This document shows positions 23,328 through 49,512 of a stretch of DNA of 51,684 bases, piece by piece. The DNA lies in the IMG/VR virus record IMGVR_UViG_3300035523_000125, positions 1 through 51,684 of that record; one strand, 5' to 3'. The notes beneath the pieces were generated by a model that made no database searches, was not told the DNA's origin, and was given only the letters and a program-made list of their open reading frames with translations. A program made the position numbers and the translations under genes. This DNA is from a virus. Position 1 is the first letter of the stretch. Every line of letters starts with the position of its first letter.

Positions 23328-23413
23328 ACGCAACACGGAGAGCCCAGGCCTTCGCTCGCGTTCGAATGCAAGCGGCTGCTCATTCAAGTTGTCGAAATAA
23401 CACACGAAATCAG

Positions 23414-23484
23414 CTTGATGCTCAACGCGCGCAGAGCGTGCATTTGCCCACGGCGGAGCTTGAACCGCCGCCGAAACGCAGGCC
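23414..23484 (+). ncRNA. Repeated leader element, copy A (potentially structured RNA)
   Basis: This 71-base stretch ends 17 bases before the ATG of the next gene. It shares blocks with copy B at 24275: CTTGATGCTCA, AGAGCGT, GGCGG.GCTTG and CGCCGCCGAAACGCAG (16 of 16). Two hairpins are possible: GCGC-AGA-GCGT, and GGCGG-AGCTTGAA-CCGCC. The loop sequence GCTTG is kept in both copies. Copy B has a stop in the frame that is open here, so the sequence is conserved as nucleic acid. A regulatory leader is likely; class unknown. Confidence 0.6.
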
Positions 23485-23501
23485 GAGCAAGCGAGGCGAC
23501 G

Positions 23502-23876
23502 ATGGCAGCGAAGCGCAGCAGGGTGGCAGACGTGGAGAAGGCCGAGGTGGCCCTTGGGAAGAGTGAGCACGGCAACGATCAGCCAACGTTGGTGATCGGA
23601 ATCCGAACGCGCGACTGGATCCGCGGTCCGCACCTCGCCCGAGCGGTGGGTCTGCATGCGGCGGCAGAGGTCGAGCTTGCGCTCGGAGCGGCCCTCGACA
23701 CGAGTTGGGGGGTCAACGCGCCAGAGTGGGGCAACGAGCAGCGCCTCCCAGAAGGCTGGCGCACCACCTTCAAGATCCACCTTGAGGGCAGGCGTGGCGC
23801 CAACGCTGAGGTCGCGATGAAGGCTCTCCGCCAGGTTGCCGACTCGCTCCGCGCCGGAAAGGGAGTGCGGCGATGA
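23502..23876 (+). CDS. Phage-edge protein of unknown function
   Basis: A 124-aa protein starting at ATG 23502 after GAGGCGACG. A Lys-rich N-terminus precedes RTRDWIRGPHLARAVGLHAAA, an Ala-rich helix, and FKIHLEGRRGANAEVAMKALRQVA. The pattern is that of a small soluble alpha/beta protein; no family recognised. Upstream frame-open codons belong to the leader element and are not taken as coding. The stop overlaps the next start (ATGA). Confidence 0.65.
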   Translation: MAAKRSRVADVEKAEVALGKSEHGNDQPTLVIGIRTRDWIRGPHLARAVGLHAAAEVELALGAALDTSWGVNAPEWGNEQRLPEGWRTTFKIHLEGRRGANAEVAMKALRQVADSLRAGKGVRR

Positions 23877-24058
23877 CTGCACCCGACTTTTTCCAGACGC
23901 GGATGGGGGCTCGGTTCTACGAGGCGACCATGCCGAAGATCGCCGATCAGCTCGAGCGCCTCAACGGGAGCCTCGAGGCACTTGTCACCGAGCTGCGCCT
24001 CCAGCGCGAGGCGCAAGCGAGCCAGCAGCCGGCGCCGACGCCGGACGACAAGCGATAG
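23873..24058 (+). CDS. Small helical protein, unknown function
   Basis: A 61-aa protein in a 4-base overlap with the gene before it. One long amphipathic helix (MPKIADQLERLNGSLEAL, then VTELRLQREAQ) and a Pro/Asp tail suggest an oligomerising or capping peptide. Its coupling to the preceding gene suggests a pair. A hairpin terminator follows 22 bases after the stop. Confidence 0.6.
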   Translation: MTAPDFFQTRMGARFYEATMPKIADQLERLNGSLEALVTELRLQREAQASQQPAPTPDDKR

Positions 24059-24080
24059 ACAGCCGGCAGCAACCTTGAAC

Positions 24081-24108
24081 GCCCCGCAGGCCAAGTGCCT
24101 CGCGGGGC
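24081..24108 (+). terminator. Hairpin terminator after the small-gene pair
   Basis: GCCCCGC...GCGGGGC arms with an inner AGGC/GCCT stem and loop CAAGT, followed by CTTCTCGT. No long T run, as is common in GC-rich genomes. It is closely related in sequence to the hairpin at 25086. Confidence 0.7.
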
Positions 24109-24274
24109 CTTCTCGTGCCCGGGGTAAGCCTTCTAGGCGCATCACTCCGAGGGCGGGCAAGTCAACTCGGTTCTTGAGATCAGGCAGTTCCGCGCCTTCG
24201 CTCCTCTCGGACTGGATAGCAACTTGTTCCGCGATCGGCCCATCTCAACCCGCCGAAATTTCTAGCGAATCCGA
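24109..24274 (+). other. Non-coding spacer between terminator and leader copy B
   Basis: No gene seen. Somewhat lower GC near 24160-24235, with TTGAGA and AACTTG-like hexamers that could serve as promoter parts, but no convincing -35/-10 pair. Confidence 0.4.
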
Positions 24275-24346
24275 CTTGATGCTCAGGCGCTGAAGAGCGT
24301 CCATGTGCTCAAGGCGGGCTTGGGAACGCCGCCGAAACGCAGAGCC
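24275..24346 (+). ncRNA. Repeated leader element, copy B (potentially structured RNA)
   Basis: The second copy of the element at 23414. Hairpin 1 is GCGCT-GAAG-AGCGT; hairpin 2 is GGCG...CGCC with the loop GGCTTGGGAA. Both are maintained although the arm and loop bases differ from copy A. The block CGCCGCCGAAACGCAG is unchanged. It lies 27 bases before the ATG of the DUF2924-like gene, upstream of an AAGGAG Shine-Dalgarno. The short frame MLRR-stop starting inside it shows it is not coding in the frame used by copy A. Confidence 0.6.
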
Positions 24347-24373: not shown

Positions 24374-25039
24374 ATGACCAAGACCTCGAAGGCGAACAAG
24401 GCCAGCAGCAAGAAGACCACCCCGATCACCCTGCACATCGCGACGCCGGGCACCGGCAAGCCGCTCTGCGGCGCCGCCGGGAAGGGCGTCAAGAATACCC
24501 TGACCCCGGCCGACGCAACCTGCATCGACTGCCAGAAGATCGCGGCGCACGCCGAGGAGAAGGCGAAGAACGAGGCGAAGGAGGCGAAGGCGGAGACCAA
24601 GGCCGCCGAGAAGCCCGAGACCAAGAAGGCGGCGAAGCCGGCGGCCGAGCCCCGCGAGCGCGACCCGCGCCTGCCGCCGCCCGGCACCACTATCAAGAAG
24701 CTCGACCGGGCTGGCGGGGTGCGCGCGGAGGTGAAGGTGACGGAGACGGGCTTCATCTACCAGGGCGAGGAGTTCCGCTCGCTCTCGGGCGCCGCGATGG
24801 CGGCGGCGAAGGACCTGGACATCAAGGGCGCCGTCAACGGCTACCTCTTCTGGGGCCTTCAGAAGCAGGCCCCCCGAGTGACCGACCCGGTCGAGGCGCT
24901 CGAGGCCGCGTGGAACCGCTACCACGAGCGGCTCAAGGCGATCGCCGCCAGCGAGCTGGAAGCGCCGGTCAGGACGAAGCTCGCCAGTTCCCTCGATCGC
25001 CAGGGGCGCGAGATCATCGAGCTGGGCGCCGCCCTATAG
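24374..25039 (+). CDS. DUF2924-like protein with N-terminal Cys/Lys-rich region
   Basis: A 221-aa protein with AAGGAG before ATG 24374. Residues 1-30 are Lys/Ser-rich. Residues 30-65 hold three Cys (PLCGAAGKG and TCIDC). An Ala/Lys/Glu helix (about 65-100) precedes a DUF2924-type domain: RLPPPGTTIKK, VKVTETGFIYQGEEFRSLSG and IKGAVNGYLFWGLQ. DUF2924 is common next to site-specific recombinases in phages and islands; the biochemical role is unknown. The C-terminal 60 residues form a helix. A related gene is at 41987, on the other side of the defence operon. Confidence 0.75.
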   Translation: MTKTSKANKASSKKTTPITLHIATPGTGKPLCGAAGKGVKNTLTPADATCIDCQKIAAHAEEKAKNEAKEAKAETKAAEKPETKKAAKPAAEPRERDPRLPPPGTTIKKLDRAGGVRAEVKVTETGFIYQGEEFRSLSGAAMAAAKDLDIKGAVNGYLFWGLQKQAPRVTDPVEALEAAWNRYHERLKAIAASELEAPVRTKLASSLDRQGREIIELGAAL

Positions 25040-25085
25040 TCCGGCGCGGACGCGCCGCCCGGAGCGGGCGGCTGCAGCGCACGAA

Positions 25086-25117
25086 ATGCCCCGCGGGCCA
25101 CTTGGCTCGCGGGGCAT
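25086..25117 (+). terminator. Hairpin terminator after the DUF2924-like gene
   Basis: ATGCCCCGCG-GGCC-ACTT-GGCT-CGCGGGGCAT: a 10-bp outer stem and an inner GGCC/GGCT stem. It closes the phage-side unit and separates it from the defence operon. Its similarity to the hairpin at 24081 supports duplication of the whole unit. Confidence 0.75.
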
Positions 25118-25236: not shown

Positions 25237-27438
25237 ATGACGGGTTGCGAAGACCCATCTGCTGACTCGACCCAAAGCGCTTACGGGCTTGGTGCTAGGA
25301 GCACTCCAAGTACGGCAACGGAACGGACTTCCATCCCACCGGAGAGGACCAGGACCTTGGCTAGCCGAACGCGAACGACCGTTGAAGAGCCTGCAACGGA
25401 CCCTGCCACGCCAGATGAGGGAGAGGAGGGCCAGGAGCCCCTTCCAGAGGACACAGTCATCTGTGCCTTGACTGGGAAGTCGATGCCCGATCGGCCGGAG
25501 GAGCAGGTCCTTCAGAGCTTCATCGAGCAGTTGCATCGCGAGTACCGCGTGGACCTCGCGGACATGCAGCGCGACGTGAAGGTTCCGTGCGCTGACTCCT
25601 CGGGGAAGCGGAAAACTGTGTCTGTTGGGATCGCGGTCTACGAGCAGGGCAAGCCGCACGAGCTCGAGAACATCACCCGTGTCGTCCTGGTGGCCAAGGC
25701 CGGCACAAAGGTCTCCGACGCGGCGGTAGGCCAACTTGACCTGGTGCTCTCGAACCTGAGCGAGGACCGGGCGCAGGTCTTCGGCGTTTGGACCAACGGG
25801 AAGGAGATGGCGTTCCGGATGCGGACGTTCGATTCCGCAAACGGCTTCCCGCTATCCACCGAGCTGACCGACTTCCCGGGCCCTGATGAAACGCTGGAGG
25901 ACCTAGACGATGCCGACCGCCGTCCATTGCGACTGGCTGCTGGAGACTCGCTTCTCCGAGCGTTCAACCACTGCCACGACTATCTGTCGACGCAAGGCCT
26001 CCGGGACGAGAAGGCGTTCTGGCAGCTCCTGTATCTGATATTTGCGAAGATCCTCGACGAGCAGCAGAGCAAGCGCCTGTTCTTTGTCGGGGCGACGGAG
26101 CGCAATAGTCCAGAAGGACAGGAACGAATCGCCGCACGCATTCACAAGCTGTTCGATGCCGTGAAAACTGAGTTTGAGGACGTCTTCGACGGGTACGAGC
26201 GCCTAGAGCCTAATGATCGCGCGCTCGCCTATGTGGCATCTCAGCTCGCGCGTTTCGACCTGCTATCCACGGACACAGATGCGAAGGGCATGGCTTTCGA
26301 GGCCATTACCTCGCACACCCTGAAGCAGAAAAAGGGCCAGTTCTTCACGCCGCGCAACGTTATCCGGATGATGGTTGATATGGTTGACCCGCAGCCCGGC
26401 AAGCGGGTGCTTGATCCTGCTTGCGGCAGCGGCGGGTTCCTTATCGTCGCACTCAATCACGCTCGACGACGTGCGCTCGCCGAGATTGGCTGCCCATATC
26501 CCGATTTTCCGGTTCAGAGCGAGATCAAGAAGGTAATCCCGAAGGTTCGCAAGTACGCTCGGGAGAGTTTGTTCGGCTTTGACGTGGACAGCGACCTGCG
26601 CAAGGCCGCCCGAATGAATATGGTCATGAATGGAGACGGACACGGTCACATCTTCAACTTCAATAGTCTCGAGTACGGCGTACTCGGGCAGCGCGAAACC
26701 ATCGACAACACGCGCTACCGAACACCCGAGATGAAGTTGGTGGAGCGAGAACTGGACGTGGGCCCCGGCGGCGCGCATGGACAGTTCGACTACGTGTTTA
26801 CCAACCCTCCCTTCGGGGCCAAAATCCCTGTGGAGGACCCCGAAGTTCTGCGTCACTACGATCTAGGGCACACCTGGCGCAACGACGGTACCACCTGGAC
26901 GAAGCATGCCCTGCAAAAGAAGGTGCCGCCTGAGGTCCTCTTCATAGAGGCGTGCTGGAAGTTTCTAAAGCCGGGCACGGGCATTATGGCGCTCGTATTG
27001 CCAAATGGAATTCTGGGGAACCCCGGGGAGCAGATGGAGTTCGTTCGTTGGTGGTTGCTGCGTCACGGGGAGCTCATGGCTAGCGTTGACTTGCCCGCAG
27101 AGACTTTCCTGCCGCAAGTGTCGGTCCAAGCCAGTTGCGTATTCGTTCGGCGTCGCGCACCCGATGAACTTCGAATGACCGGAGCGCATGGCCCAAAGCA
27201 GAGACCGGTGTTCATGGCGATCGCAGAAAATTGCGGCCACGGACGCCGAGGCGAGCTACGCCACCTTCGAGAGCCCGATGGATCCGAGAGTCTCCACGAA
27301 GACCAGGTTGTGGCCCGTTGGGAGCGTGGCGGCCGAATTCAAGAGCGCGTCCGGCTTCGCAAAAGCAAGAGGATAGCCGATGACCTCCCGATGGTTGCGA
27401 CCGAATACCGCGCGCTCAATAAAGGCAAGCTTCCGTGA
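25237..27438 (+). CDS. Type I-like N6-adenine DNA methyltransferase of the defence operon (MADS MAD2-like)
   Basis: A 733-aa HsdM-type protein. Residues 75-230 form the N-terminal nuclease-like/HSDR_N-type region (EEQVLQSFIEQLHREYRVDL). The helical HsdM domain follows (FNHCHDYLSTQGLRDEKAFWQL, MAFEAITSHTLKQKKGQFFTP). SAM motif I is DPACGSGGF (393-401) and the catalytic motif is NPPFG (523-527). The first 40 residues are low-complexity; a TTG at 25357, after ggagagg, is a likely alternative start. It should methylate host DNA with the S subunit encoded next, whose GTG start overlaps this stop. GC is lower than in the phage genes, a sign of transfer. In MADS this is, from memory, the MAD2 slot. 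Confidence 0.85.
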   Translation: MTGCEDPSADSTQSAYGLGARSTPSTATERTSIPPERTRTLASRTRTTVEEPATDPATPDEGEEGQEPLPEDTVICALTGKSMPDRPEEQVLQSFIEQLHREYRVDLADMQRDVKVPCADSSGKRKTVSVGIAVYEQGKPHELENITRVVLVAKAGTKVSDAAVGQLDLVLSNLSEDRAQVFGVWTNGKEMAFRMRTFDSANGFPLSTELTDFPGPDETLEDLDDADRRPLRLAAGDSLLRAFNHCHDYLSTQGLRDEKAFWQLLYLIFAKILDEQQSKRLFFVGATERNSPEGQERIAARIHKLFDAVKTEFEDVFDGYERLEPNDRALAYVASQLARFDLLSTDTDAKGMAFEAITSHTLKQKKGQFFTPRNVIRMMVDMVDPQPGKRVLDPACGSGGFLIVALNHARRRALAEIGCPYPDFPVQSEIKKVIPKVRKYARESLFGFDVDSDLRKAARMNMVMNGDGHGHIFNFNSLEYGVLGQRETIDNTRYRTPEMKLVERELDVGPGGAHGQFDYVFTNPPFGAKIPVEDPEVLRHYDLGHTWRNDGTTWTKHALQKKVPPEVLFIEACWKFLKPGTGIMALVLPNGILGNPGEQMEFVRWWLLRHGELMASVDLPAETFLPQVSVQASCVFVRRRAPDELRMTGAHGPKQRPVFMAIAENCGHGRRGELRHLREPDGSESLHEDQVVARWERGGRIQERVRLRKSKRIADDLPMVATEYRALNKGKLP

Positions 27439-28817
27439 AGGCCTTTCTTGTAAGTGAACCCCGTTCTTCGGCACTCCGGGCGCTCAATTACTCACCAACC
27501 CTGGAGAGAATTCGCAAGTCAGGCTCCGGCTCTTCCGCATCGCTTGGCTCAATGCTCTCGCATATGGGCGAGTCGTACTGGTCGGTATTCACCAGACATG
27601 ACTGCGAGCCGAAATTCGGCGTTGAGCTGCTGTCGCAGACAGACATGTTCGCAGCAGAGCCGGCAGGGCGCGTTATTCGCCGCGATTCAATGCCGAACCC
27701 GGATGCGCATCGAGTCGAGAAATGGCAGGTACTCATTGCTGGCGCGGGTCAGATGGGGGAGGGCAACCTCTTCGGACGCAGCATCATTGCGGATGGCCGC
27801 CTCGCAGGTGGCTATCTTGGCCCTCACGCAGTTGCGTTGACATTCGCCGAGCCAGGTAGTCCTGAGAATCTCTGGACGTATGCATATCTCAATTCGTCGG
27901 CGGGGCTTGCCTCCATAAAGACAGCTGCATTTGGCACTTCCGTGCCAGGACTGCGCCTGGACTTGCTGCGTGAACTCCCAGTTCCGATAGGGCCACCGGC
28001 AATCGTGAAGCGCGTTGCCGCTCTCATCCGCGCGTGCGTTGAACAGCGAGAGCGATTCTTGAGCTCGCTGGCTAGGGCGCGATCTGAGGTCAACGCACTG
28101 CCGGAGATGCAGCAGGCGGAGGAAATGTGCGCAGGCCGCACTTCCCGCTCTGTCTTATGGGAGGGGCCACTGCGCTCGCTATCTGCTTGGAATGCTGCAT
28201 CGTCGGGAGGGGCGCTCCAATACCTTCGCCGAAAATGGAACAAAACGCTTGGGGACATGGTAGCCCAGCGAGGCATCTACAACGGGCCTCGATTCGCACG
28301 CGTGGATTGCGCGGAGCCGCATGGTCTTGAGTTCATGTCTCAGCGCGATGTCATGCTGATCAGGCCAATGCCCCGCCGTATTCGCCACCCGGGTTTTGAA
28401 GACAGAATGATCTTCGCGCAACAGGGAACCATCCTCGTTGGTGGACATGGGACTTTGGGCGAGGGGGAGATCTTTGGGCGAGCAGGACTCGTGTATGGGC
28501 GCCTATCACGGGCTGCATTTACGCAAGATCTCCTGCGAATCGTGCCCGTTGCATCGCATGAGCACTTGCTCTACGCCTATCTCTCAACCACGGTGGGCTT
28601 TAGGCTCCTTCGGTCAACGGCGGTGGGCACCAAGATTCTTAGCATGCGAGAGGACATGCTTCGAGACCTTCCTGTCCCTACCTGGCCGAGCAAGGTGGCG
28701 AAGAAGGTTGATGAGCTCATTCGCATCGCCTTCGAAGCTCGCGAGGCGGCTGATTTAGCTGAAGCCGATGCGGTGGGCATTATCGAGCAGGAGGTCTTGC
28801 CTCAATGGCTCGCGTGA
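27435..28817 (+). CDS. Restriction-modification S subunit (MADS MAD5-like)
   Basis: A 460-aa specificity subunit with two target-recognition halves. Each half has a TRD followed by a helix: half one ends with GTSVPGLRLDLLRELPVPIG and KRVAALIRACVEQRERFL, and half two ends with GTKILSMREDMLRDLPVPTW and KKVDELIRIAFEAREAADL. Both contain a GxGEG(N/E)(L/I)FGR motif (MGEGNLFGRSI, LGEGEIFGRAG). The doubled plan means a bipartite recognition sequence. The GTG start is in a 4-base overlap with the methyltransferase stop, and it overlaps the kinase gene by 13 bases. Confidence 0.85.
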   Translation: MKAFLVSEPRSSALRALNYSPTLERIRKSGSGSSASLGSMLSHMGESYWSVFTRHDCEPKFGVELLSQTDMFAAEPAGRVIRRDSMPNPDAHRVEKWQVLIAGAGQMGEGNLFGRSIIADGRLAGGYLGPHAVALTFAEPGSPENLWTYAYLNSSAGLASIKTAAFGTSVPGLRLDLLRELPVPIGPPAIVKRVAALIRACVEQRERFLSSLARARSEVNALPEMQQAEEMCAGRTSRSVLWEGPLRSLSAWNAASSGGALQYLRRKWNKTLGDMVAQRGIYNGPRFARVDCAEPHGLEFMSQRDVMLIRPMPRRIRHPGFEDRMIFAQQGTILVGGHGTLGEGEIFGRAGLVYGRLSRAAFTQDLLRIVPVASHEHLLYAYLSTTVGFRLLRSTAVGTKILSMREDMLRDLPVPTWPSKVAKKVDELIRIAFEAREAADLAEADAVGIIEQEVLPQWLA

Positions 28818-31800
28818 TCTACACGCCGTCTGGTGGCGACGGTCCGGTCGGTCCCTTCGAACACGAGGTATTGGAGTTGCTGCACAGGGCGCTTCCCCGC
28901 ACCTGGGGCCTCGCGCCGAACTTCCAGCTCAAGCAACGCGGTCATGACGCTCTCGAGTACGACATCGTGCTCCTAGCCTCGCACGCGCTCTTCGTGATCG
29001 AGGCCAAGGAGTGGTATGGCCGGCTAACAGGCGACGATCAGGAGTGGCTCCTCAATCAGACTCCGAAGCGTTGCCCGATGTGGACTGTGAATCACAAATG
29101 TAAGGTACTGAAGACCGAGCTAGGCGCGCTCGCGAACGAAGTACAGGTAGCACCGGTCTTCGTCGTGCCGGACGGCACCGCCATCCAACTAAGCGGATCC
29201 TGGAAAGGGTCGGTAGTCAACCTCGGAGGTCTCGCCGCTTGGTTGCAGGACGTACGTAACGTTCCGTCTCACCGGCGGGGCGAGGATCTTTCTCCCCGAT
29301 TTCAGGCAATGGAGCAGGCGCTCCAGGGCAAATGGGGCGCCCGACAGCGCCAAAGTCGTCGCCGAGTCGGCAGCTACGAGATCGTTGAGACTCTCCATGT
29401 TGCGCCGGAAGAGGCGATGTACGTCGCCAAGCGGGCATATGTAGAGGGCGATCCGTCCAGGTATCGGGTCCGAACGTGGAAGATAAACCCGCTTGGCGCA
29501 CACGAGGAGGTTGAACAACGAAAGGCGGTCGTAAGACGCCCGACGGAGGCCATTGCAAGGATCGGTCGTCATCCGAACCTATTGCCCGTACTCCAATTCG
29601 ACTACATCGACGAGGACCATGAGTTCTTCGAGGTGACCGAGTGGTCGGAATACGGCACCCTTCACGGCTTCCTAAGCAATGCAGAGCGGGACAGGCTGAC
29701 CATTCGCGAACGGCTGGAGATTGCGGAAGGAGTCGCCGCCGCCCTTGAAACCGTTCACGCGGCCGGTGTCGTTCATCGAAACGTTTCTTCGGCGGCCGTG
29801 CTCATCGGCTTCGACCGAAAGCCGCGCCTTACGGACTTCGACCGGGCGTGGATGGAGGCGGGGCGCACGGTGTTCGCTGACACCGAGAACCGCGCCATCC
29901 GGCCATACCTGCCGCCCGAGCTCGCCAACGTATCGGACTATGACTTCGACACGACGTCGGACATGTACTCGTTTGGCGTCTTGCTCTACCAGCTCCTAAC
30001 CGACGAGTTGCCATTCGAGGGACCAGAGGCTGCCAAAGCTGCCGGCGGATGCCCAACCAAGCTGCCGTCGGAGGTCCGGGCAGGGGTGGACAGCACCATC
30101 GACGAGCTTGTGCTCAATCTGCTGCGCACCGACGACTTCAAGGCGCGCCCGACAGCTTCTAGTGCGCTTCAGCGGCTTCACAGTGTGCTTGGGATGACGA
30201 CCGGGCCCGGGCGCAAGGAGCCGTCACAGCCCCCAGCGCCTCCATTAGAGTTGAAAGTTGGCGCCATCCTTGACGGCGTCTGGCGCCTCGACGAGGAAAT
30301 CGGGAGGGGCACTTTCGCCAGGGTCTTTCGGGTTTTCAACTTGGACCACCAGCGCACCTACGCAATGAAGGTTCTGGTGGACGGCGAAAACGCCGACTTG
30401 GCCCTACACGAGTTCAACCAAGTCCAGCCGCACCTGCCAGCACATCCCAACATTGTTCACATTGTCTGGATGGCGAGGCTCGGCCCACCTCTCGACCACC
30501 CCTATATCGTCTCAGAGTTCGTGAAGGGCGAGACTCTTGAGCCCTACTGCGCAGACGAGCGCCGGCTTGCCTGGTCCGATATCAAGTCCATCGGAATCCA
30601 GCTCCTCGACGCCTTAGCCGCGCTGCATGGAAATGGAATCTTTCACCGCGACATTAAGCCCGCGAACGTGATGCTGGAGTTGCCGACACACCAGCCAAAG
30701 CTCATCGACTTCAATATCGCTGCCAAGTCTGGCGAGGCGAAGGGCAAGGCTGGCACGCGGCGATACTGGGCTCCCGATGTTGCAACGGCCGGATGGGGTC
30801 CACACGCCGACCTGTTCTCGCTCGGGGTTGTGCTCTACGAACTGGTGGTCCATCGCCATCCATTCCCGCATGACAGGCCAGATGGCGGCATTCCGTACGA
30901 TCCTCGCCAATTAGCGGTAGGCGTGAGCCTCTCCGAGGAACTGGCCAAGTTTCTGTTGAAGGCCGTACAGCCGCAGGCAAGCGAGCGATTCAATGCGGCC
31001 GCCGAAATGCGGGATGCGCTGGCCGCCGTGCCTTCGATGCTGGCTCCGGCTGGGCCGCCAATTGTTTCGCTTGACGCGTTTGCAGGTATTCAGCTCGAGC
31101 CGGCGGAGATGGGACGGGCGGACTACAACCCCTTCGTCACGCGGTTGCTAACGCTGTACAGCCAGGCACGTAGAACGAATGCCGGGACGCGAGGGCTCGA
31201 TGAGATCGCCAGACTCACCTACGTGCGCACCGGGCTCGACGACAAGCTCGCGCCCGCAATTACGACAGGGCGCTACCGCCTCGTGATTGTCACTGGAAAC
31301 GCAGGTGATGGCAAAACAGCCTTCCTTGAGCAGGTCGAGACGCTCTTTGAGCTGAACGGTGCGCAAATTAGCCGCCTTCCGACTAAGAACGGCTCTACCT
31401 GGACCTGGGAGGGGCGGTCCTACGAGACGAACTACGACGGGTCCCAGGACGAGGAGGATCGTTCAAACGATGCAGTACTCGATGCCTTCCTTAAACCCTT
31501 CGAGGGTGACGAGATGGGAGGCTTGGCGGGTTCCGCTGTACGCCTCATAGCCATCAATGAGGGACGGCTGCTCGATTTCCTCGCTCACGGTCCCCGCGCC
31601 GGGGCGTACGGTGGCCTGCGCCGGTTCGTCAACTCTGCGCTCGCAGGGGGGGCGCTGCCAGATGGGGCCCTGTTGGTAAATCTCAACCTTCGCGCGGTGA
31701 CGGCTGGCGGTGCGAACTCCTTGATAGAGCGGCAGCTCAAGCAGCTGCTTCAGCCGGCTCTTTGGGCTCCCTGCGACGCCTGCTCCGTTCGGGCCTCGTG

Positions 31801-32968
31801 CCCAATCTTGCATAACGTCAATACTCTGCGGGACCCAAATTCTGGACCAGCGGTGCGGGAACGCGTGCGTCGCTTGTTCGAGGTGGTTCACCTGCGTCGT
31901 CGTGCGCACGTCACGATGCGCGACCTGCGGTCAGCGCTTTCATGGCTCCTGCTGCGCGACCACGGGTGCTTGGACGTGCAGAGCATACTCAAGCAGCTCG
32001 ACCAGGATGGGCCGACCTCCCTGGTCGCGCTGTATTACACCGAGGCGTTTGCCGATCTCGAAGCGGGCGTCCGTCCTCCTGTGAGAACAGCAGACCCGGA
32101 GCGTACGACTGATAGGCTCGTGGGCAGGCTTCGTGAGGCGGATGTCGGCCGGGTGAACCACCCGATGCTCGATCGTGAGCTCGACCGGAACATCGACGGC
32201 GCGGTGCCGTGGATGACCTTCGAGGCGCGTAGCGAAACGGCGGCGGCGCAGCTTCGTCGCTTCGCTAGCGGAGTCCCTCGTCCCGGCGATGACGTGCCTT
32301 TCGAAAAGGTAGTGGAGGATCGACGGCAGCTTGCCGGAGTCCTCCGCCGCTGGGCGTACTTCGAGAGACGTGACAACGCTTGGGAGGACATGCTGCCGTA
32401 CAGGTCGGTCGGGCTCTTGGAGTCCGTAATCAATGCCTCCAGCGAGGCCGACCGAGACAAGGCTTGCCGCGAACTGCGGGATCGCATGGTCGAGGCAGTG
32501 AGCGTGGCCGAGGGGGTCCGAAACCCCAGGCTGAGGCGCAACTACCTCGCGCTTCGGGTCTCTCGGGTCAAGACGGCAGCCATCCGCTCCTATCGCCTCT
32601 TTCCGAAGGCTGGATTCGAGATTCGCGTCGCACGTCCGTCTCAAGAGACCTATCTGGAGTTCTCCCCCGACGTAGTGGAGTTGGTCTCCCTGGACGGGCC
32701 TGCGAGGCTGCGCATTTCTCTCGACCTCTTGGAGATGATGGAGTTGATCCGCCACGGCTATCGCCCCACCGCGGCCGATCTTCAGGGCTTGTTCGTAAAT
32801 CTTCTGATCTTCCGGAACGAGTTGTTGGCGACCACTTTTGACCGTGTCCTGCTCTCTGCTGACGAAGAGCAGTTCTTCGAGGTCTCTGCCGAGGCTCGGC
32901 CCGAAGGAATCCGGCTGGCGCTCATGCGGCATGGGATCGAAGTCGATGATGCTGTGGAGGGGGCATGA
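28805..32968 (+). CDS. NERD / pseudokinase / Ser-Thr kinase / P-loop protein (MADS MAD6-like, PglW-like)
   Basis: A 1387-aa multidomain protein. Residues 15-150: NERD nuclease-related domain, D53 and E66-A-K68 (the nuclease triad order). 190-465: a kinase fold with the HRD changed to H324-R-N326 and DFD for DFG, so probably a pseudokinase. 495-760: an active-looking kinase, Gly loop GRGTFARVF (about 500), AMKVL lysine, H614-R-D616, then IDFN at the DFG site. 830-1100: P-loop G831-NAGDGK-T838 and a Cys cluster (CDACSVRASC). The C-terminal 280 residues are helical. PglW of Pgl/BREX type 2 has a similar NERD-kinase start but there is no PglZ or BrxC here. A role in sensing phage and phosphorylating partners is the family expectation. 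Confidence 0.85.
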   Translation: MARVIYTPSGGDGPVGPFEHEVLELLHRALPRTWGLAPNFQLKQRGHDALEYDIVLLASHALFVIEAKEWYGRLTGDDQEWLLNQTPKRCPMWTVNHKCKVLKTELGALANEVQVAPVFVVPDGTAIQLSGSWKGSVVNLGGLAAWLQDVRNVPSHRRGEDLSPRFQAMEQALQGKWGARQRQSRRRVGSYEIVETLHVAPEEAMYVAKRAYVEGDPSRYRVRTWKINPLGAHEEVEQRKAVVRRPTEAIARIGRHPNLLPVLQFDYIDEDHEFFEVTEWSEYGTLHGFLSNAERDRLTIRERLEIAEGVAAALETVHAAGVVHRNVSSAAVLIGFDRKPRLTDFDRAWMEAGRTVFADTENRAIRPYLPPELANVSDYDFDTTSDMYSFGVLLYQLLTDELPFEGPEAAKAAGGCPTKLPSEVRAGVDSTIDELVLNLLRTDDFKARPTASSALQRLHSVLGMTTGPGRKEPSQPPAPPLELKVGAILDGVWRLDEEIGRGTFARVFRVFNLDHQRTYAMKVLVDGENADLALHEFNQVQPHLPAHPNIVHIVWMARLGPPLDHPYIVSEFVKGETLEPYCADERRLAWSDIKSIGIQLLDALAALHGNGIFHRDIKPANVMLELPTHQPKLIDFNIAAKSGEAKGKAGTRRYWAPDVATAGWGPHADLFSLGVVLYELVVHRHPFPHDRPDGGIPYDPRQLAVGVSLSEELAKFLLKAVQPQASERFNAAAEMRDALAAVPSMLAPAGPPIVSLDAFAGIQLEPAEMGRADYNPFVTRLLTLYSQARRTNAGTRGLDEIARLTYVRTGLDDKLAPAITTGRYRLVIVTGNAGDGKTAFLEQVETLFELNGAQISRLPTKNGSTWTWEGRSYETNYDGSQDEEDRSNDAVLDAFLKPFEGDEMGGLAGSAVRLIAINEGRLLDFLAHGPRAGAYGGLRRFVNSALAGGALPDGALLVNLNLRAVTAGGANSLIERQLKQLLQPALWAPCDACSVRASCPILHNVNTLRDPNSGPAVRERVRRLFEVVHLRRRAHVTMRDLRSALSWLLLRDHGCLDVQSILKQLDQDGPTSLVALYYTEAFADLEAGVRPPVRTADPERTTDRLVGRLREADVGRVNHPMLDRELDRNIDGAVPWMTFEARSETAAAQLRRFASGVPRPGDDVPFEKVVEDRRQLAGVLRRWAYFERRDNAWEDMLPYRSVGLLESVINASSEADRDKACRELRDRMVEAVSVAEGVRNPRLRRNYLALRVSRVKTAAIRSYRLFPKAGFEIRVARPSQETYLEFSPDVVELVSLDGPARLRISLDLLEMMELIRHGYRPTAADLQGLFVNLLIFRNELLATTFDRVLLSADEEQFFEVSAEARPEGIRLALMRHGIEVDDAVEGA

Positions 32969-34572
32969 AGCTTCGCAAGCAAGACCAGGAGTTTCGCAAC
33001 CCGCGCCTCTTCTACGCCGACCCGAAGAACGTGGATCTCGACCGGGTGTTGATAGTCCTCTTCCTCTGGCTCAAGACTGGCGGCATGCGCCCTGCGACGA
33101 CGGGACGCCAGAAGAAGGAATTCGAGAAGGTGGATGTCCACTTCAAGCGATTAGCTGGCCTGCCGGGCGTCAGCGGCTTTTCCGAGAATGAGGAGATTGC
33201 GCGCCGGTGGCTTGAGACGGACGTTTTCGACCTTGTGAACCGCGGGCGGCCGACAGAGGCAATCGCTTCACTGCGACCACTGCACCTTGATGCCCACAAG
33301 ATCCGAGTTGCGAAGCATTGTCGCGACTACAACTTCGCGGATGCGCTGTATGCGATGCTTGAGCACGGCGAGGGGACGGCACATAAGGAGCTCAAGGCGT
33401 ATCTTGAGTGCGGACGCCAGTTTCAGGCCGGCGCGAAGCTGGACCTAGAAACCCTGGCAGTTCTCAAACTTGTCGAGGGGGTAAGTGACTCCTTCCCTTC
33501 TGGGGAGAAGATCACCCCATATCCGCCGATCTGTCGGGGTCAGTCCCGCGTTCTATGTGACGACATCGAGCGCATCCTTTCCTATAAGGACGTACCGCGC
33601 TCTGTAATGATAGACTACTTGCGCACGATCCTAGGATTGCACCTGGGTCTCTACACCCTGCGCCTAGGGCGCCAGCTTTCGGGCTGGGTCCGCGACTGCA
33701 GTTCGAACGCGACTTGCCGGAATTGCGCCGTCTACGGGAATTTGGACGATCCCTTCGCGCAGTGCGCGTACCCCGTCTCATTCACCACTGACATGGGGGG
33801 CGACTACCGGAGTCGGATGGCACAGCTGGCGCAGGAGGATGCCGGCGCTGAGTACGCGCGGCTTGGCGACCTTGTGAAGGCAGTCTTCGCAATGAACCAG
33901 CTATTGCGCTACGCGCGGGAGGAAGGGACCTCGGATGACCCTTTCGATGTTCCATCTCTTCTGGCGAATCCGAAACCTGAATTCGAGTCCGACTTCAAGG
34001 CGATCTTGAAGCAAATCCGCGGCCTGAATTCGGAGGATGAGGCTTTGTCTCCCGAGGTCGAGGCTATCCTCAACTCCGGCCTGTCGTCGTTCGATATCTT
34101 GATCGAATTGGTAACGCATGTTCGGCAAGCTCATCACATCAAGTACCTCGTACAGATGACTGACAAGCTGTTCCAAAAGAACTCGCCCTTTGGTGCTCTG
34201 GTGCAGGGGAAATCGAAGACCAACCCGCGGCGCTGGCACCTCGGTGGTCGAATGCTAGAGGTCCTCGTGCAGCTTGCCGTTCTCAGGGCAAAGGACACGC
34301 CAGCGGGTCGTCGTTTTTCTACAGAGCCGATTCTGGTCGAAGACTTCTTGCACTGGGTTGAGCGACGGTACGGCTTCGTCATTGCCCCCGGCGTCACAAA
34401 TACCGGCCGGAAGCCGGTGACGCTGGACGAGCACCGGGCTTTTCGCGACAACGTGCGTGCCTTCAAGGACCGCTTGCGGGAAATCGGCTTCTACGACGAC
34501 CTGTCGGATGCCTACAACGCCCAAACCATCCACCCGCGCTACGAGTTGCGTGCAGAGGAGAATGCGTCGTGA
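32965..34572 (+). CDS. Cys-cluster protein of the defence operon (MADS MAD7-like)
   Basis: A 535-aa protein, KLRKQDQEFRNPRLFYADPK at the start. Helical, with tetratricopeptide-like spacing around residues 80-160 (ADALYAMLEHGEGTAHKEL). The stretch DCSSNATCRNCAVYG (residues 249-263) with a further Cys after 10 residues is a likely metal site (C-x5-C-x2-C). The C-terminal half is helical with a basic RWHLGGRMLEVLVQLAVLR segment. No catalytic motif seen. It starts in an ATGA overlap with the kinase gene and ends in a GTGA overlap with the giant ATPase gene, so all three are coupled. I recall a MAD7 of comparable position and size in MADS. Mechanism unknown. Confidence 0.7.
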   Translation: MKLRKQDQEFRNPRLFYADPKNVDLDRVLIVLFLWLKTGGMRPATTGRQKKEFEKVDVHFKRLAGLPGVSGFSENEEIARRWLETDVFDLVNRGRPTEAIASLRPLHLDAHKIRVAKHCRDYNFADALYAMLEHGEGTAHKELKAYLECGRQFQAGAKLDLETLAVLKLVEGVSDSFPSGEKITPYPPICRGQSRVLCDDIERILSYKDVPRSVMIDYLRTILGLHLGLYTLRLGRQLSGWVRDCSSNATCRNCAVYGNLDDPFAQCAYPVSFTTDMGGDYRSRMAQLAQEDAGAEYARLGDLVKAVFAMNQLLRYAREEGTSDDPFDVPSLLANPKPEFESDFKAILKQIRGLNSEDEALSPEVEAILNSGLSSFDILIELVTHVRQAHHIKYLVQMTDKLFQKNSPFGALVQGKSKTNPRRWHLGGRMLEVLVQLAVLRAKDTPAGRRFSTEPILVEDFLHWVERRYGFVIAPGVTNTGRKPVTLDEHRAFRDNVRAFKDRLREIGFYDDLSDAYNAQTIHPRYELRAEENAS

Positions 34573-37500
34573 CCACGCTACTCCCACTCGTCCCGGCGGA
34601 GTCTGGCGACCACCATGAGGCGCTCTCGCTGCTGTTGGCGCCGCGACTGCGGGAAGTGCTGGAAGGGGCCGGGCCGGGCCACCGCTTGCGCGTCACAACC
34701 CTGCCGCACCCCGTGATGGAGCGGCTCGCAGTGGCCCTCGAAGACCCTCGGTGGTTGGTCCGAGTGGTGAGCGAGCACCCGGCGCGGCCCTACGAGGCGA
34801 CCGCCGCGACGATAATCCGGCTTCGAGACCATGCGAAGACCCCGGTTCTCGTTTTCTTTCCACCTGGTCCTCGCACCGCCTCTGAGGATTCCCTCGACAT
34901 CGCCACGTTCACCGAGCTCTCGCTGGCCTCTGTCGCGCAGAGTCTTGCAGACGCACTTCTGGAGCGATTGGACGAACCGCTGCGGGGCGAAGTGCGTGAG
35001 GTATTGAAGCACCTCGCGGAGGTCCGACAGATTCGACACCCGGACGAGCAGGTGGATTACCTTCTCACGGTTCTCAAGAATGGAGCCACGCCGGCGGCGG
35101 CCGGGGGAGCCCTGTTTCAGTTCGGTTTGGTGCCGGATTTCGGACTATTCACGCGGGGCGCGGGGGGCACGCTGTTCTGGCTTTCCAGGAATCTTCAACA
35201 GTGTGCCAAGCTCTCCGACGTCAACCAACCGCTTCAGCGGCGACTGCGCGGGCTGGGACTCAAGCCTGATACGCTGCAACAAGAACTCTTCCGCTTCTTT
35301 CGGCTGCGACACACAGAAGAGCCCCGGTCCTGGGGCAGGTTGGTTGCGTGCGATGCGAGCAATCGCCATCTCTCGCTCGATCGGTGGGAGTTCGCTGACG
35401 CGGAAAGCGAAGGCGAGCTTCGGCTAGTTCTCGATTCTTTGAATCTGCCGCGCCAGATCGCCGATGACGTGGCGGGCGCAGACCGAATGCCGGTCCTGAA
35501 TATTACCGGCAAGGAACCGCTGAAGGTGGTGTTCCGGTCGATTCCCAATCCGTCTCAGGCCCCTGCCTGGGTGCATTGGCGGGTGCAGTTCTTGGCTATC
35601 GGGGATGGCGCCGCGACGGTCGCGTGGGAGAGCAACAACTTCCCAAAGCCCGCGGGTGGGCGGCTCGCGAAGGTCCGGCGTTCGATCAAGACCAAGGACT
35701 TGGAGTCCCTTGACGAAGGGACCTACTTCTTGCGGGTCGATGCCTACGACGCTGGAGGCGCTCTCCTGACGACGCCTCGACGCCTCGACCCCAAGAACGA
35801 GGCATCACGGGCCGAGAACGAGTCTGAACCTTTCCTAGTGGTCCGGGAGGAGGTTGTTATCGAGGACCCCGATGCACGGGCGACCTTCGTCCCGTCGCTT
35901 CTGGCAGCTTGGATTCGCGGCGGGTTGAAAGCCCTCGACGGGACGACTAGGGAGTCGGTGCCAAGCCGCGCAAGCCTTGCGGGGTCCTGGAATCAGCCGA
36001 TAGGTGCATCAGTGAAGGGCGACGTGCGTTTCGACCTCGAGTCCGAAGGCTTCAATGGGTTCGCGGTCGTCGTCCCCGGGCTGTTGCGCAAAGTAGAGAG
36101 CATGTTCCTTGGCAATCCTCGCGCTCTCGGGGTGTACTCGATGGCGCTTGGGGAAGCCCGAACTCCTGGCGATGTGGAGTTGGTGTGCAAGGAGCCGGCG
36201 GTCCTTGATGGTGTTCCCAGTATCGCCTCGTTCCTCAATGCGCGGGAGGAGGTATTTCGACGAATCCGTGACCAGCACCTGCCGCCAGGCGCGATGCCAG
36301 AGGAACGCGCCGCGAGACAGGGCATCGTGGAGGTGGTGGACCTCGCGCCACATTCAAGCGCCGTCCGAGCGTACGCCCAGTCGTTCGCCGAGCTCGTTCG
36401 TGGAGCAATGGAGCTTGATAGCGCGCATAGGACTGCCCTACTGCGCGCTATTGCCTGGCTTGATGCAGTCGAGCTGCGATGGCGTGCCCAACCGGGCGAT
36501 CCCGGGCGCGCTGTGCTGCTCGGGCCGACTCACCCGCTTCGGCTCTTGTGGCATCTCGCGCATACCGTCGAATGCGCCAATGCGATCGAGGCGTGGGATC
36601 ATCGAACGCACCAGGTGCCAGACTGGAGGCGGTTTGTTGAGCAACTACGGGACGAGTTGCTGCCCCTCAACCTTCCGATGGCTCTCTTCGACCGACGCGG
36701 GAGAGCGTACACTGAGGCTCTCCCGATAACGTCATTCTGGGGCCTGTACCTTCCGGACCGGGACCTAGATGGCCGACACGTGGATACCGCAGCAGCACGC
36801 GATCGGGCGCTCGCGAGCATGGGCGTCCGTTCCCGTTCCGTGGCAGTGACGACCGTCAACTCTGATGAAATCGCGGCACGCCTGTACGACTTCGTCGTCC
36901 AGCACCCCTACGTCGAGCAACTGCGGCTCAATGTCTTCAACCCTGGCAACGGAGAGTTGGTCGCCGACGTGCTTCGGGGAGTCGAAGCTCTGCGGCGTGA
37001 ACACCGCTCTCCGTCTTCGCTGCGGTATGCCGTCCACCTGTTTGCTCCCGCGAGCCAGCTCGACTCTGTGGGTGAGGCGGTCGAGAGCCTGCTCGATCCC
37101 GAGCGGCACGTCGGTGAGGACGATGAGTTCACTCTGTATAGTGGCAACCACCTTCAGCCGAAGCTCCTGGTCGCCCGCAATGACCTTGCCGATTTCGTGG
37201 CCGAGCACACTCGGTATCCGGCCCACCTTTCCGTTCTTGTCGAGCAGTTCGCTGCTCAAGGACGCGTTGGGCCCCTCAAGTTGTTCCGGCGCGGCTCCTT
37301 TGTCGGCGGGCTAGTTCAAGAGCCGGAGACTGTGCCGCTAGATCAGCCAGTGGCGCAGGCCCAACGCGTTGTGGGTTGGTCGAAAGCGGTCCGCCCCGCA
37401 ACCCGCGCCGTGGCGGAGCCGTTGGAGCAACTGATTGCCGAGACGCTAGCCGCCACACACCGCCTTCAGGCAGCCGTAGCTCTTGGCCAGCCAGTGGGAG

Positions 37501-40058
37501 CCGAAGTCGGGCCCATGCTGGCTCTCCAGTTGGACGTGCAAGCGCAGGCGCTCCTACGTCAAGTCCACGAGGTGAGCGACCGCGTCATTACTCTCGACCG
37601 ACATCTGGGGGTCGACTTTTTCGACGCGCCCGCTGCTGGCAAGGAAACGGGATACCTCCTGGATTTCGCGCCGGAGTTTCTCCAAGAGGAGCGACAGCGC
37701 ATTGTCCTGACGACCAGGAACACGCAGGAGATCGAGGGAGTCCTGTCCCCGATGCTCAAGTCGTACGGCATCAACTTGCGACCAGGTGATGAGCTGATGG
37801 TGTTGGAGGGCCTTCGGTCGCTGTCCGGTCGCCTAGCCATTAGGTTGGAGGGATCGACGACACGGGCGCAGGAAGTAGTGGGCCTACTGTTCGCGCGATG
37901 GCTCCTGGAAGAAGTCGGCGCGCTTGAGAACCGCATCGTTCTCCCGCTGGATGCTCACCGTTCGTGGTTCCAGGGCCCTGGGCCTCAGCGGCGGGCCGAT
38001 CTCCTCTTGGTCGGTTTCCCGGGCAGCGGCGTAGTGCGCATGGACGTGATCGAGGTGAAGTTGCGGGAGGAACTCCCGCCGGGAGCGCGGGAACCTCTCT
38101 ACCGGTCGATGCGTGAGCAGACCGACGTGACGACCGAGCGTCTGCGCGCGCTATTCGACCCGGCTCTCTACGCCCTGCCTCGGGCAGACCAAGCGCTTCG
38201 TGCGAAGGAACTCGCAGGGGTGCTCTCCTTCTATATTCGGCGCGCGGTGAGATACGGCCTGCTCATGCCGCCTGCAGGGCAAGCGGCACTGGCCTTTGCC
38301 GAACGCCTCGATGACGGTTACAAGCTCGATGTCCAGCGCATGGGCGTGGTGTTCGAGCGCCTTGGCTCCGGCCTCCACATCGATGAGGACGAACCGGGCT
38401 TCACTGTCTACCGCTTCGGCGCGAACAAAGCCCGCAAGCTGTTCCATCTCGCGATGGGGCGCTTTGACGAGCGCTCGTCTGTGCGTGGCGGCGAATCGAG
38501 CGAGGCTTCGGTCCCCGAGGGGAGCAGCGTCGGTCTCGTTGAAGATGTCGGCGAAGAGCGCTTGGTGGAGGTGTTGCGTACTACCCTACATGTGCCGCCA
38601 TCGCGAACGACATCTGAGCCAGCGGGGCCCATGCGAGCAGACGAGCGGGCGAACGAACAGCCGGCCACCTACCCGGAGGATTCGAAGAAGGGCGAGGAAC
38701 CTGCGACGGCCAAGCCTTCAATCTCCGACAGCGGTCAGAAGGTCGAAGCGGCGCCTGTGCCAAGCGTGCCCGTCGAAGTGCCCCAACCCTCTAGCGAAGA
38801 AGGAAGTGCGGCCGAACCGAGGGCTACCGCGCTCGTTGTGCCCAAAGTAGTGCCGGACGTTCTCCTGGGCGCAACCACAATGACTCCCCAGTACGGTGTT
38901 CTCGGTCGTTTTGGATCGAGCTCGGTCGCCCTTGACCTCAATGGCTGCAACACCATCTCGCTTTTCGGTGTGCAGGGCTTCGGCAAAAGCTACACGCTTG
39001 GAGTAATCGCCGAGATGGCGTCGGTCCAGAATACGGGCGTCAACTTGCTACCGTCGCCTCTTGCGACGGTGATCTTCCACTTCCATAAGAGCGACGCCTA
39101 CGAGCCTGAATATGTCACAGCGGTAGCTCCGAATCGAAAGGCCTCGGAGGTAGACCGACTCTTGGCGGAGTACGGCGCGAAGCCTAAAGGACTCGAAGAC
39201 GTCGTCCTACTAGCACCGGAGGCGAAGGTCGAACGTCGGCGTCAAGAGTATCCGGGCCTCCGTGTTGAACCGATCAAGTTCAGTTCCTCAGAGTTGGGGG
39301 CGGAGAGCTGGAAGTACCTCCTTGGTGCCTATGGCAACGACTCGCTCTACATTAGGCAGCTAGTTGCCATCATGCGCCGGCACCGTGACGGGCTCACTCT
39401 CGAAACCCTCAGACAGGAAATCGAAGATGCCGAGCTTCCTCCGGCCGCGCAGCGCCTCGCCGAAGACCGCCTCAATCTTGCCCGGCCCTACATCGACGAC
39501 AACCGCCGACTAGGAGAAGTGCTTCGCCCTGGGCGGACGGTCATCGTAGACCTGCGTGACGAGTGGATCGAAAAGGATGAGGCCTTAGGCCTATTCGTCG
39601 TCATGCTGCGCATATTCGCGGCGAGCCGGCATGAAGGCCGGGAGTTCAAGAAGCTCGTTGTCTTCGACGAGGCCCACAAGTACATCTCGGAATCGGACCT
39701 GGTTTCGCAGGTGGTCGAGAGCATTCGCGAGATGCGACACCAGAACACCAATGTGATCATCGCGAGTCAAGACCCCCTGTCAGTGCCTAGAGTGATCATC
39801 GAACTCTCTACCATCGTGGTCCTCCATCGGATGACGTCGCCGCAATGGCTCAAGCACCTTCGGACCGCCCTTGTCTCGCTGAATGATGTGCAAGACAGCG
39901 CGGTGACGTCGCTCCAGCCCGGAGAGGCATTGGTGTGGGCCCAGAGAAGTACCGACAAGCGATTCACGTTGAGGCCGCAGAAAGTCTCGATTCGCCCGCG
40001 GTTCACGCTGCATGGGGGTGGCACAAAGACCGCGGTAGCGGGTGAAACGATTAAGTGA
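34569..40058 (+). CDS. Giant PD-(D/E)XK plus HerA/FtsK-like ATPase protein (MADS MAD8-like)
   Basis: An 1829-aa protein. The first 1000 residues are a mixed-fold region with no family I recognise. Residues 1130-1170 show a nuclease-like motif: D1144 in RRADLLLVGF and E1162-V-K1164 in MDVIEVKLRE. A Pro/Glu-rich low-complexity linker (1340-1420) follows. The ATPase domain (1430-1800) has Walker A GVQGFGKS (1467-1474), a Walker B-like DEA (1700-1702) in LVVFDEAHKYISES, and IIASQDPLSVP, the arrangement of HerA/FtsK-type translocases. It could load on or move along phage DNA and cut it. The GTG start overlaps the stop of the previous gene. Confidence 0.8.
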   Translation: MTTLLPLVPAESGDHHEALSLLLAPRLREVLEGAGPGHRLRVTTLPHPVMERLAVALEDPRWLVRVVSEHPARPYEATAATIIRLRDHAKTPVLVFFPPGPRTASEDSLDIATFTELSLASVAQSLADALLERLDEPLRGEVREVLKHLAEVRQIRHPDEQVDYLLTVLKNGATPAAAGGALFQFGLVPDFGLFTRGAGGTLFWLSRNLQQCAKLSDVNQPLQRRLRGLGLKPDTLQQELFRFFRLRHTEEPRSWGRLVACDASNRHLSLDRWEFADAESEGELRLVLDSLNLPRQIADDVAGADRMPVLNITGKEPLKVVFRSIPNPSQAPAWVHWRVQFLAIGDGAATVAWESNNFPKPAGGRLAKVRRSIKTKDLESLDEGTYFLRVDAYDAGGALLTTPRRLDPKNEASRAENESEPFLVVREEVVIEDPDARATFVPSLLAAWIRGGLKALDGTTRESVPSRASLAGSWNQPIGASVKGDVRFDLESEGFNGFAVVVPGLLRKVESMFLGNPRALGVYSMALGEARTPGDVELVCKEPAVLDGVPSIASFLNAREEVFRRIRDQHLPPGAMPEERAARQGIVEVVDLAPHSSAVRAYAQSFAELVRGAMELDSAHRTALLRAIAWLDAVELRWRAQPGDPGRAVLLGPTHPLRLLWHLAHTVECANAIEAWDHRTHQVPDWRRFVEQLRDELLPLNLPMALFDRRGRAYTEALPITSFWGLYLPDRDLDGRHVDTAAARDRALASMGVRSRSVAVTTVNSDEIAARLYDFVVQHPYVEQLRLNVFNPGNGELVADVLRGVEALRREHRSPSSLRYAVHLFAPASQLDSVGEAVESLLDPERHVGEDDEFTLYSGNHLQPKLLVARNDLADFVAEHTRYPAHLSVLVEQFAAQGRVGPLKLFRRGSFVGGLVQEPETVPLDQPVAQAQRVVGWSKAVRPATRAVAEPLEQLIAETLAATHRLQAAVALGQPVGAEVGPMLALQLDVQAQALLRQVHEVSDRVITLDRHLGVDFFDAPAAGKETGYLLDFAPEFLQEERQRIVLTTRNTQEIEGVLSPMLKSYGINLRPGDELMVLEGLRSLSGRLAIRLEGSTTRAQEVVGLLFARWLLEEVGALENRIVLPLDAHRSWFQGPGPQRRADLLLVGFPGSGVVRMDVIEVKLREELPPGAREPLYRSMREQTDVTTERLRALFDPALYALPRADQALRAKELAGVLSFYIRRAVRYGLLMPPAGQAALAFAERLDDGYKLDVQRMGVVFERLGSGLHIDEDEPGFTVYRFGANKARKLFHLAMGRFDERSSVRGGESSEASVPEGSSVGLVEDVGEERLVEVLRTTLHVPPSRTTSEPAGPMRADERANEQPATYPEDSKKGEEPATAKPSISDSGQKVEAAPVPSVPVEVPQPSSEEGSAAEPRATALVVPKVVPDVLLGATTMTPQYGVLGRFGSSSVALDLNGCNTISLFGVQGFGKSYTLGVIAEMASVQNTGVNLLPSPLATVIFHFHKSDAYEPEYVTAVAPNRKASEVDRLLAEYGAKPKGLEDVVLLAPEAKVERRRQEYPGLRVEPIKFSSSELGAESWKYLLGAYGNDSLYIRQLVAIMRRHRDGLTLETLRQEIEDAELPPAAQRLAEDRLNLARPYIDDNRRLGEVLRPGRTVIVDLRDEWIEKDEALGLFVVMLRIFAASRHEGREFKKLVVFDEAHKYISESDLVSQVVESIREMRHQNTNVIIASQDPLSVPRVIIELSTIVVLHRMTSPQWLKHLRTALVSLNDVQDSAVTSLQPGEALVWAQRSTDKRFTLRPQKVSIRPRFTLHGGGTKTAVAGETIK

Positions 40059-41783: not shown

Positions 41784-41986
41784 TTAGTCCTGGCAAGCGC
41801 CCGGGACGCACGCGAGCGCGCCACGGGACCGGCCGATCGAATGCTTCGGCGGCTCTATGCGGCTGGGGGGGTGGGCGGTTGTTCCGCGTGATTAGGGCGG
41901 ACGCCGGAAGGGACGCCGAAATGCCTTGCAGGCGACGTAAGGAGGAGGCGTCATCAGCGACGGGCGGCGCTTGCCCCGGGGACAAG

Positions 41987-42448
41987 ATGACGAGCCACGA
42001 TGACCTCACGGCAGTCGAAGTCCTTCCGATTGCGGCGCTTCGCGCGAAGTACCGCGAGGTAGTCGGTCTCGATGTCCGCACGCATAACCGCGCCTATCTA
42101 CTGCGACGAATCGCTTACGTGCTGCAGCAGCGGGCCGAGGAGGTCGCCCGGCCCGAGGTGCCTTCGGCGGCGCCGGCCAGTCCGTCGATGCCGCCCACAG
42201 CGGCGCCAACGCCGCCCTGCGATGAGCAGGATCCGCGGATGCCTCCGCCCGGGACGACCCTCGAGCGGCAGTACAAGGACGCCGTGGTGCGCGTGAAGGT
42301 CCTGGCGGACGGGTTCGAGTTCGAGGGCCGGCGATACCGCTCCCTCTCGGCCATCGCGCGCGAGGTCACCGGCACCATCTGGAACGGGATGCTCTTCTTC
42401 AACCTCGCCCGCAGGAAGCCCTGGAAGAAGCCCTCGCGGGGCGGGTGA
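41987..42448 (+). CDS. DUF2924-family protein
   Basis: A 153-aa protein starting at ATG 41987. The N-terminal helix part (LPIAALRAKYREVVGLDVR) is the usual DUF2924 start; TRNR-like THNRAYLLRRIAY follows. The C-terminal domain has MPPPGTTLERQYKDAVVRVK, LADGFEFEGRRYRSLSAIARE and GTIWNGMLFFNLA, which is the family hallmark. It shares the PPPGTT and RSLS segments with the gene at 24374. DUF2924 genes usually precede a recombinase; here an ATPase follows. Preceding 219 bases (41768-41986) hold no gene. Confidence 0.8.
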   Translation: MTSHDDLTAVEVLPIAALRAKYREVVGLDVRTHNRAYLLRRIAYVLQQRAEEVARPEVPSAAPASPSMPPTAAPTPPCDEQDPRMPPPGTTLERQYKDAVVRVKVLADGFEFEGRRYRSLSAIAREVTGTIWNGMLFFNLARRKPWKKPSRGG

Positions 42449-42627
42449 TCCGCCGCTGATCGCGCTGGGTTGAGCCAAGTCCGCCCTGCCGGTCGTGTCG
42501 GCCCCGCGTGCTATCAGTCCAGCCTCGACCCACACCGAGGTTGGCGGCTTTGACCACTCCAAGACCCTCCCGTATCTTCGGCGCCTGCTCCGACCAGGAC
42601 AGCGGAGCCCCAAGCGCGGAGTCCACC

Positions 42628-44556: not shown

Positions 44557-44569
44557 ACCGGGGGCTGGC

Positions 44570-46596: not shown

Positions 46597-46600
46597 CAAC
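46572..46600 (+). terminator. Hairpin at the end of the response-regulator gene
   Basis: GTTGTCAGGC and GCCTGACAAC form a perfect 10-bp stem with a 9-base loop, overlapping the stop codon. No T tract follows, so it may be a terminator of the three-gene operon or a regulator binding site for the next gene. Confidence 0.5.
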
Positions 46601-46710
46601 GACCTGGCGGCTCCTCCTCTGGAGCCGACGATCCGTTGACGTACCGGCGTCGATGAGAGGCACGCACCTGCTCGGCTACGTTGGACGCGTTCTCACCGAG
46701 CGAGCGTCCA

Positions 46711-47766: not shown

Positions 47767-47824
47767 GATCGATGTCTGTCTGCCGGAGGTGTACCGTAGG
47801 CGCGGAGCCTGCGGGAGAGCCGGC

Positions 47825-49471: not shown

Positions 49472-49476
49472 CAGGC
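49448..49476 (+). repeat. Left terminal inverted repeat of the IS
   Basis: 29 bases, TGTAGTGCGCCAGCTGGATC at the start, ending GACAGGC; 23 of 29 match the reverse complement of 51007-51035. Confidence 0.85.
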
Positions 49477-49512
49477 TTCGCGCCGTGGTAGCTAAACGGC
49501 ATGGAGGTCGTC

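Follow-up and report, generated by a model that had tools for sequence, protein, structure and literature searches.

A box and leader repeated ahead of small gene units at the right edge of a Mu-like phage: a probable promoter or operator and a possible regulatory RNA

The window analyzed here is the whole of virus record IMGVR_UViG_3300035523_000125 (G000; 51,684 bases). The phage in it is Mu-like, as judged by its Mu-like protease and Mu-like gpT head protein; the best phage record for its baseplate J-like protein is Myxococcus phage Mx4 (38% identity), and our best guess for the host is a myxobacterium. Behind the last tail genes, in the late region at the right edge of the phage, lie two small units, A and B, each headed by a copy of a repeated element. 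Orthologs are from IMG/VR record IMGVR_UViG_3300035523_000117 (G001; 82,586 bases), stretches of which are cited as L003 and L006. The features are as follows.

23393–23413, plus strand: box of copy A, CGAA-N8-CGAA (CGAAATAACACACGAA), with spacer; putative promoter/operator
23414–23482, plus strand: leader copy A, ~69 nt, 5' of the 124-aa gene
23502–23876, plus strand: first gene of unit A, 124 aa; L003 ortholog 58% identical over 109 aa
23873–24058, plus strand: second gene of unit A, 61 aa, of no known family; L003 ortholog 73% identical over 60 aa
24078–24108, plus strand: GC-rich, terminator-like hairpin closing unit A, a 31-nt repeat with a weak U-tract
24254–24274, plus strand: box of copy B, CGAAATTTCTAGCGAA, with spacer; putative promoter/operator
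24275–24343, plus strand: leader copy B, ~69 nt, 5' of the DUF2924-like gene
24374–25039, plus strand: gene of unit B, 221 aa, with an N-terminal Cys-containing part and a C-terminal DUF2924 domain
25085–25115, plus strand: GC-rich, terminator-like hairpin closing unit B, a repeat of the hairpin at 24078, which folds

The 124-aa product has no match in Pfam or PHROG, and its G001 ortholog (L003:2260-2630) contains an in-frame stop and may be a pseudogene or partly read. The 221-aa protein matches PF11149 (E 1.9e-10) and has two relatives in G001; the Cys in its N-terminal part is conserved. A first, sequence-only reading had described both units as closed by related terminators. The two closing hairpins are indeed related (84% alike) and both fold stably; however, they have poor U-tracts, and neither was called in a terminator scan.

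Copies A and B are alike at 51 of 69 positions in an ungapped comparison. When copy A was scanned over the window, the runner-up after copy B reached 36/69 (mean 18.8, sd 4.0), which places the A/B likeness 8 sd over background; the repeat is therefore real and not due to chance. The blocks that had been reported as common to the copies at 23414 and 24275 (CTTGATGCTCA, AGAGCGT, GGCGG, and CGCCGCCGAAACGCAG) were all found. The reported extent of ~72 bases did not stand: in a MAFFT alignment with flanks, the likeness starts ~20 bp 5' of the reported start, with the CGAA-N8-CGAA boxes at 23393 and 24254, and the conserved unit of ~90–100 bp consists of this box followed by the ~70-nt leader. Both copies lie just 5' of a start codon, as had been claimed, with ~20–30 nt between the end of the leader and the ATG (23502 in A and 24374 in B) and a Shine-Dalgarno-like stretch in this gap. 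The flanks of the two copies have no evident similarity, and the genes behind them are unrelated.

G001 contains three more copies (Ga, Gb, and Gc), which brings the total to five copies in two records and three prophages. Ga and Gb lie behind tail genes orthologous to those of G000 and ahead of orthologous genes. Gc lies near the opposite end of G001, 3' of a terminase gene, part of a protease gene, and a broken-up gpT gene, and it apparently belongs to a degenerate second Mu-like prophage. The remains of that prophage (L006:3396-6979) include a terminase 71% identical to that of the window, a protease of which there is a fragment only, and a gpT gene split into three pieces.

On the DUF2924 side, conservation of the leader exceeds that of the flanks: the leaders of B, Gb, and Gc are 81–93% identical over 69 nt with no gaps (59/69 for B and Gb), and their upstream regions are 61–72% identical. 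The contrast is smaller for A and Ga, with 55/69 (80%) ungapped identity in the leader and ~70% upstream with gaps. The three further copies in G001 show that selection acts on this sequence. It is very unlikely that the repeat was kept by recombination or by recent duplication of the units alone, with no function of its own; Gb and Gc do share their whole unit together with a long noncoding block 5' of it, but A and B have only the module in common, before unrelated genes, and each has an orthologous copy in G001. The noncoding block (L003:2829-3250 and L006:8080-8490) is ~370–400 nt long, highly similar 5' of Gb and Gc, and contains a 9-bp perfect hairpin (CCGCTCGCT/AGCGAGCGG); it was not seen 5' of copy B and has no Rfam match.

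Exact-pattern scans of IMG/VR with four patterns returned only G001, the remaining matches being chance, and a pattern scan of 84,980 bacterial and archaeal species (one genome each) gave 12 matches, all chance. No match to copy B turned up among phage and plasmid records by blastn, and protein-led neighbor searches recovered only G001. In Mx4, the element is absent from the 19-kb stretch searched with a model, and the box is absent from the whole record. Exact patterns overlook diverged copies, so the range of the element may be wider than these two records, which at present are too narrow a basis for claiming a widespread class. The element is apparently undescribed.

Could the leader simply be part of the protein encoded behind it? 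The frame that starts at the leader ATG meets a stop after four to seven codons in B (after four), Gb, and Gc. No stop interrupts this frame in copies A and Ga; it continues in phase into the 23502 gene in A, whereas in Ga it does not share the phase of its gene. A protein-coding extension of the downstream gene was rejected on account of these stops and of the phase in Ga. The difference in coding capacity noted earlier between copies A and B is thus as described, and the homologs in G001 speak against coding as well.

A search with 4227 Rfam models gave no match at the gathering threshold in the window, L003, or L006, and at a laxer threshold it gave only a chance match to ALIL (11.8 bits against a gathering value of 50). 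A known RNA family is ruled out by this search, in keeping with the earlier statement that no riboswitch or leader class was recognized.

Each copy had also been said to fold into two hairpins, and this was so only for the consensus of the five copies. The minimum-energy folds of A and B are unlike each other and no better than those of shuffled sequences (z 0.15 and −0.55); the same holds for the other single copies, Gc excepted, and the predicted ensembles of single copies disagree. In the RNAalifold consensus, two adjacent stem-loops within ~70 nt form one nested structure with the pairings ATGCTC/GAGCGT, TGYG/CGCA, and GGCGG/CCGCC. This structure pairs 97.3% of cells in the five copies, compared with 21–52% when the partner columns are slid, and its energy is marginal relative to column shuffles of the alignment (z ~−1.9, p ~0.04). 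The fold energy is −18.3 for the sense strand and −15.6 for the antisense strand. The stems are largely invariant (3 of 30 paired columns vary, compared with 26 of 42 unpaired columns; Fisher p 8e-6, with the structure fitted to the same alignment). No pair shows a compensatory double change in the five copies; because most stem columns are invariant, this lack of evidence does not count against the structure. At U6-G25, every one of the five copies has a wobble pair, which fits RNA better than DNA.

In four of the five copies, the 5' half has as its lowest-energy fold a competing hairpin, long and irregular, whose variable apical part pairs above permuted residues (p ~0.008 for a region picked post hoc). 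By this same test, the interior of hairpin 1, which is variable, tends to retain CGC/GCG pairing in differing registers. A fixed-column version of the long hairpin combined with the 3' hairpin pairs only 78% of cells. We consider an RNA structure of the leader plausible; a function as RNA is only weakly supported. The sequence-only reading had made its case depend on further copies with covariation, and three further copies were found but no compensatory double change. Its proposal of a new regulatory RNA stands insofar as the leader is conserved, noncoding, present in several copies, and outside Rfam; a new regulatory RNA class is possible.

Across the 134 kb of G000 and G001, CGAAWWWN5CGAA is present at the five leaders (two and three, respectively) and nowhere else; Mx4 has none, and the backward control gave 0. 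A sigma-70 promoter scan of the region found none. Box A and its Ga counterpart are 67% identical, no better than the flank (70%), for a box that is short. Because the CGAA-N8-CGAA box is constant 5' of every copy, the element probably includes, at the least, a promoter or operator.

A serious rival, which we rate as possible though on balance doubtful, is that the element acts as DNA only: a composite promoter/operator at which a phage activator or repressor binds, with the stems as protein half-sites and no leader RNA function. The tie of the box to every copy fits this well, as do the constant spacing of ATGCTC-N10-GAGCGT, with arms invariant in all copies save one Gb base, and the lack of any double compensatory change. 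The candidate binding sites would be the paired CGAA boxes and the TGCTC-N10-GAGCG dyad. In Mu, several late promoters are activated by C, and com and mom are subject to post-transcriptional control through their leader at the right end. The C protein, as one activator for several late promoters, is a precedent for DNA-only control. The present phage is Mu-like, and it would resemble Mu in having several promoters under common control as well as post-transcriptional control at its right end. However, conservation over ~90 nt, reaching to ~20–30 nt before the start codon, exceeds what a single operator would need; a G-U mismatch is fixed within the dyad; GGCGG-N11-CCGCC-GAAA-CGCAG does not look like a core promoter; and the CGC/GCG pairing kept in shifting registers would suit RNA better.

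Because the element lies 5' of ribosome binding sites, with a constant box and a constant length, we favor a promoter or operator combined with a leader RNA, and the repeat is probably a shared switch of this kind. It is lineage-specific and most likely a cis-regulatory module of the Mu-like phage, and we see roughly even prospects that this module comprises a promoter/operator and a structured 5' leader for small edge units. The 5' part (CGAA-N8-CGAA, including the AT-rich bases that it encloses) would probably be a phage-controlled promoter or operator with transcription starting near CTTGATG, and the next 70 nt would probably be transcribed as a structured 5' leader with two hairpins, one formed by ATGCTC/GAGCGT and the other by GGCGG/CCGCC enclosed in TGYG/CGCA, where GAAA, which is invariant, faces YCAA. 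Promoter activity, the start site, the fold, and its action are inferred from the letters; the leader might act on the transcript through mRNA stability, translation, or antitermination past the closing hairpins. Each copy would head a self-contained, moron-like unit at the right phage edge, made up of the module, one or two small genes, and a GC-rich hairpin.

Two narrower versions of this explanation specify the action of the leader. One is an antitermination RNA like HK022 put or lambda nut, in which the two hairpins, at the start of the transcript, would modify RNA polymerase and cause read-through past the hairpins that close the units and on into the cargo genes. The lambda nut site has a boxA (CGCTCTTA-like) followed by a boxB hairpin and works with an N-like protein. 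On inspection of the leader, only the TGCTC of a boxA was seen. The putL and putR sites of HK022 encode antiterminator RNAs, in two ~70-nt copies with two stem-loops each, that suppress termination via the β' zinc-binding domain of RNA polymerase; they follow PL and PR, where the early operons begin (PMC9378689). The layout reported for putL and putR (PMC9378689) resembles the one predicted here: two ~70-nt copies per phage near the start of their units, each with two stem-loops (predicted from sequence), after a putative promoter and 5' of terminator-like hairpins. Unlike put, however, the leaders here do not serve early operons but late, right-edge units, which are very short and follow the tail region; the single-copy folds are not robust, and the closing hairpins are only putative terminators. 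We hold antitermination of this type to be improbable, and give the same low probability to a sequence-unrelated new class of put-like antitermination (or RNA polymerase- or protein-binding) leaders serving as a portable module for Mu-like edge cargo units.

The other narrower version invokes RNase III-type processing or stability hairpins, as in T7, or a translational operator to which a phage protein binds, in the way that Com acts on mom mRNA in Mu, with the DUF2924-like protein itself perhaps as the regulator. In favor of it are the place of the module, directly 5' of ribosome binding sites, the conserved N-terminal Cys of the DUF2924-like protein, and the Mu-like protease and gpT of the phage. 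Unlike in Mu, no Com family match was found among the proteins scanned; in addition, A and Ga precede another gene and not the DUF2924-like one, and the leader is missing from the canonical DUF2924 genes found at other places in the two records. We regard this version as unlikely.

Phage morons are small promoter-gene-terminator insertions between phage genes. The units described here are similarly self-contained, lying behind tail genes with their own upstream module and closing hairpin, but they differ in that one conserved leader heads unrelated units, which is not a defining trait of morons. Since every copy heads its own small unit, unrelated edge genes would share one control. If the leader acts as RNA, the element would illustrate how unrelated accessory genes at the edge of a Mu-like phage come under one control, and it would add an undescribed phage leader to those of the model phages; if it is a promoter or operator only, it is still a usable marker of the regulon of this phage group.

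A canonical DUF2924 gene with no leader lies at 41879–42448 of the window, and G001 has two such genes, likewise with no leader, on its minus strand (at 7376 and 64191). To the right of the cargo, positions 42508–50795 encode an SMC-like AAA ATPase, a histidine-kinase ATPase domain, a sigma-54 activator domain, and an rve integrase; this stretch may be host DNA or more cargo, which makes the right end of the phage uncertain. Immediately after unit B, a large operon (25237–40058) resembles the MADS defense system. It encodes a methyltransferase (best match MTase_II, with a match to mad2 too), a specificity subunit-like protein (weak match to mad5), a NERD-kinase (mad6/PglW-like), a mad7-like protein, and a protein of 1829 aa with a match to mad8 at its C-terminal end.
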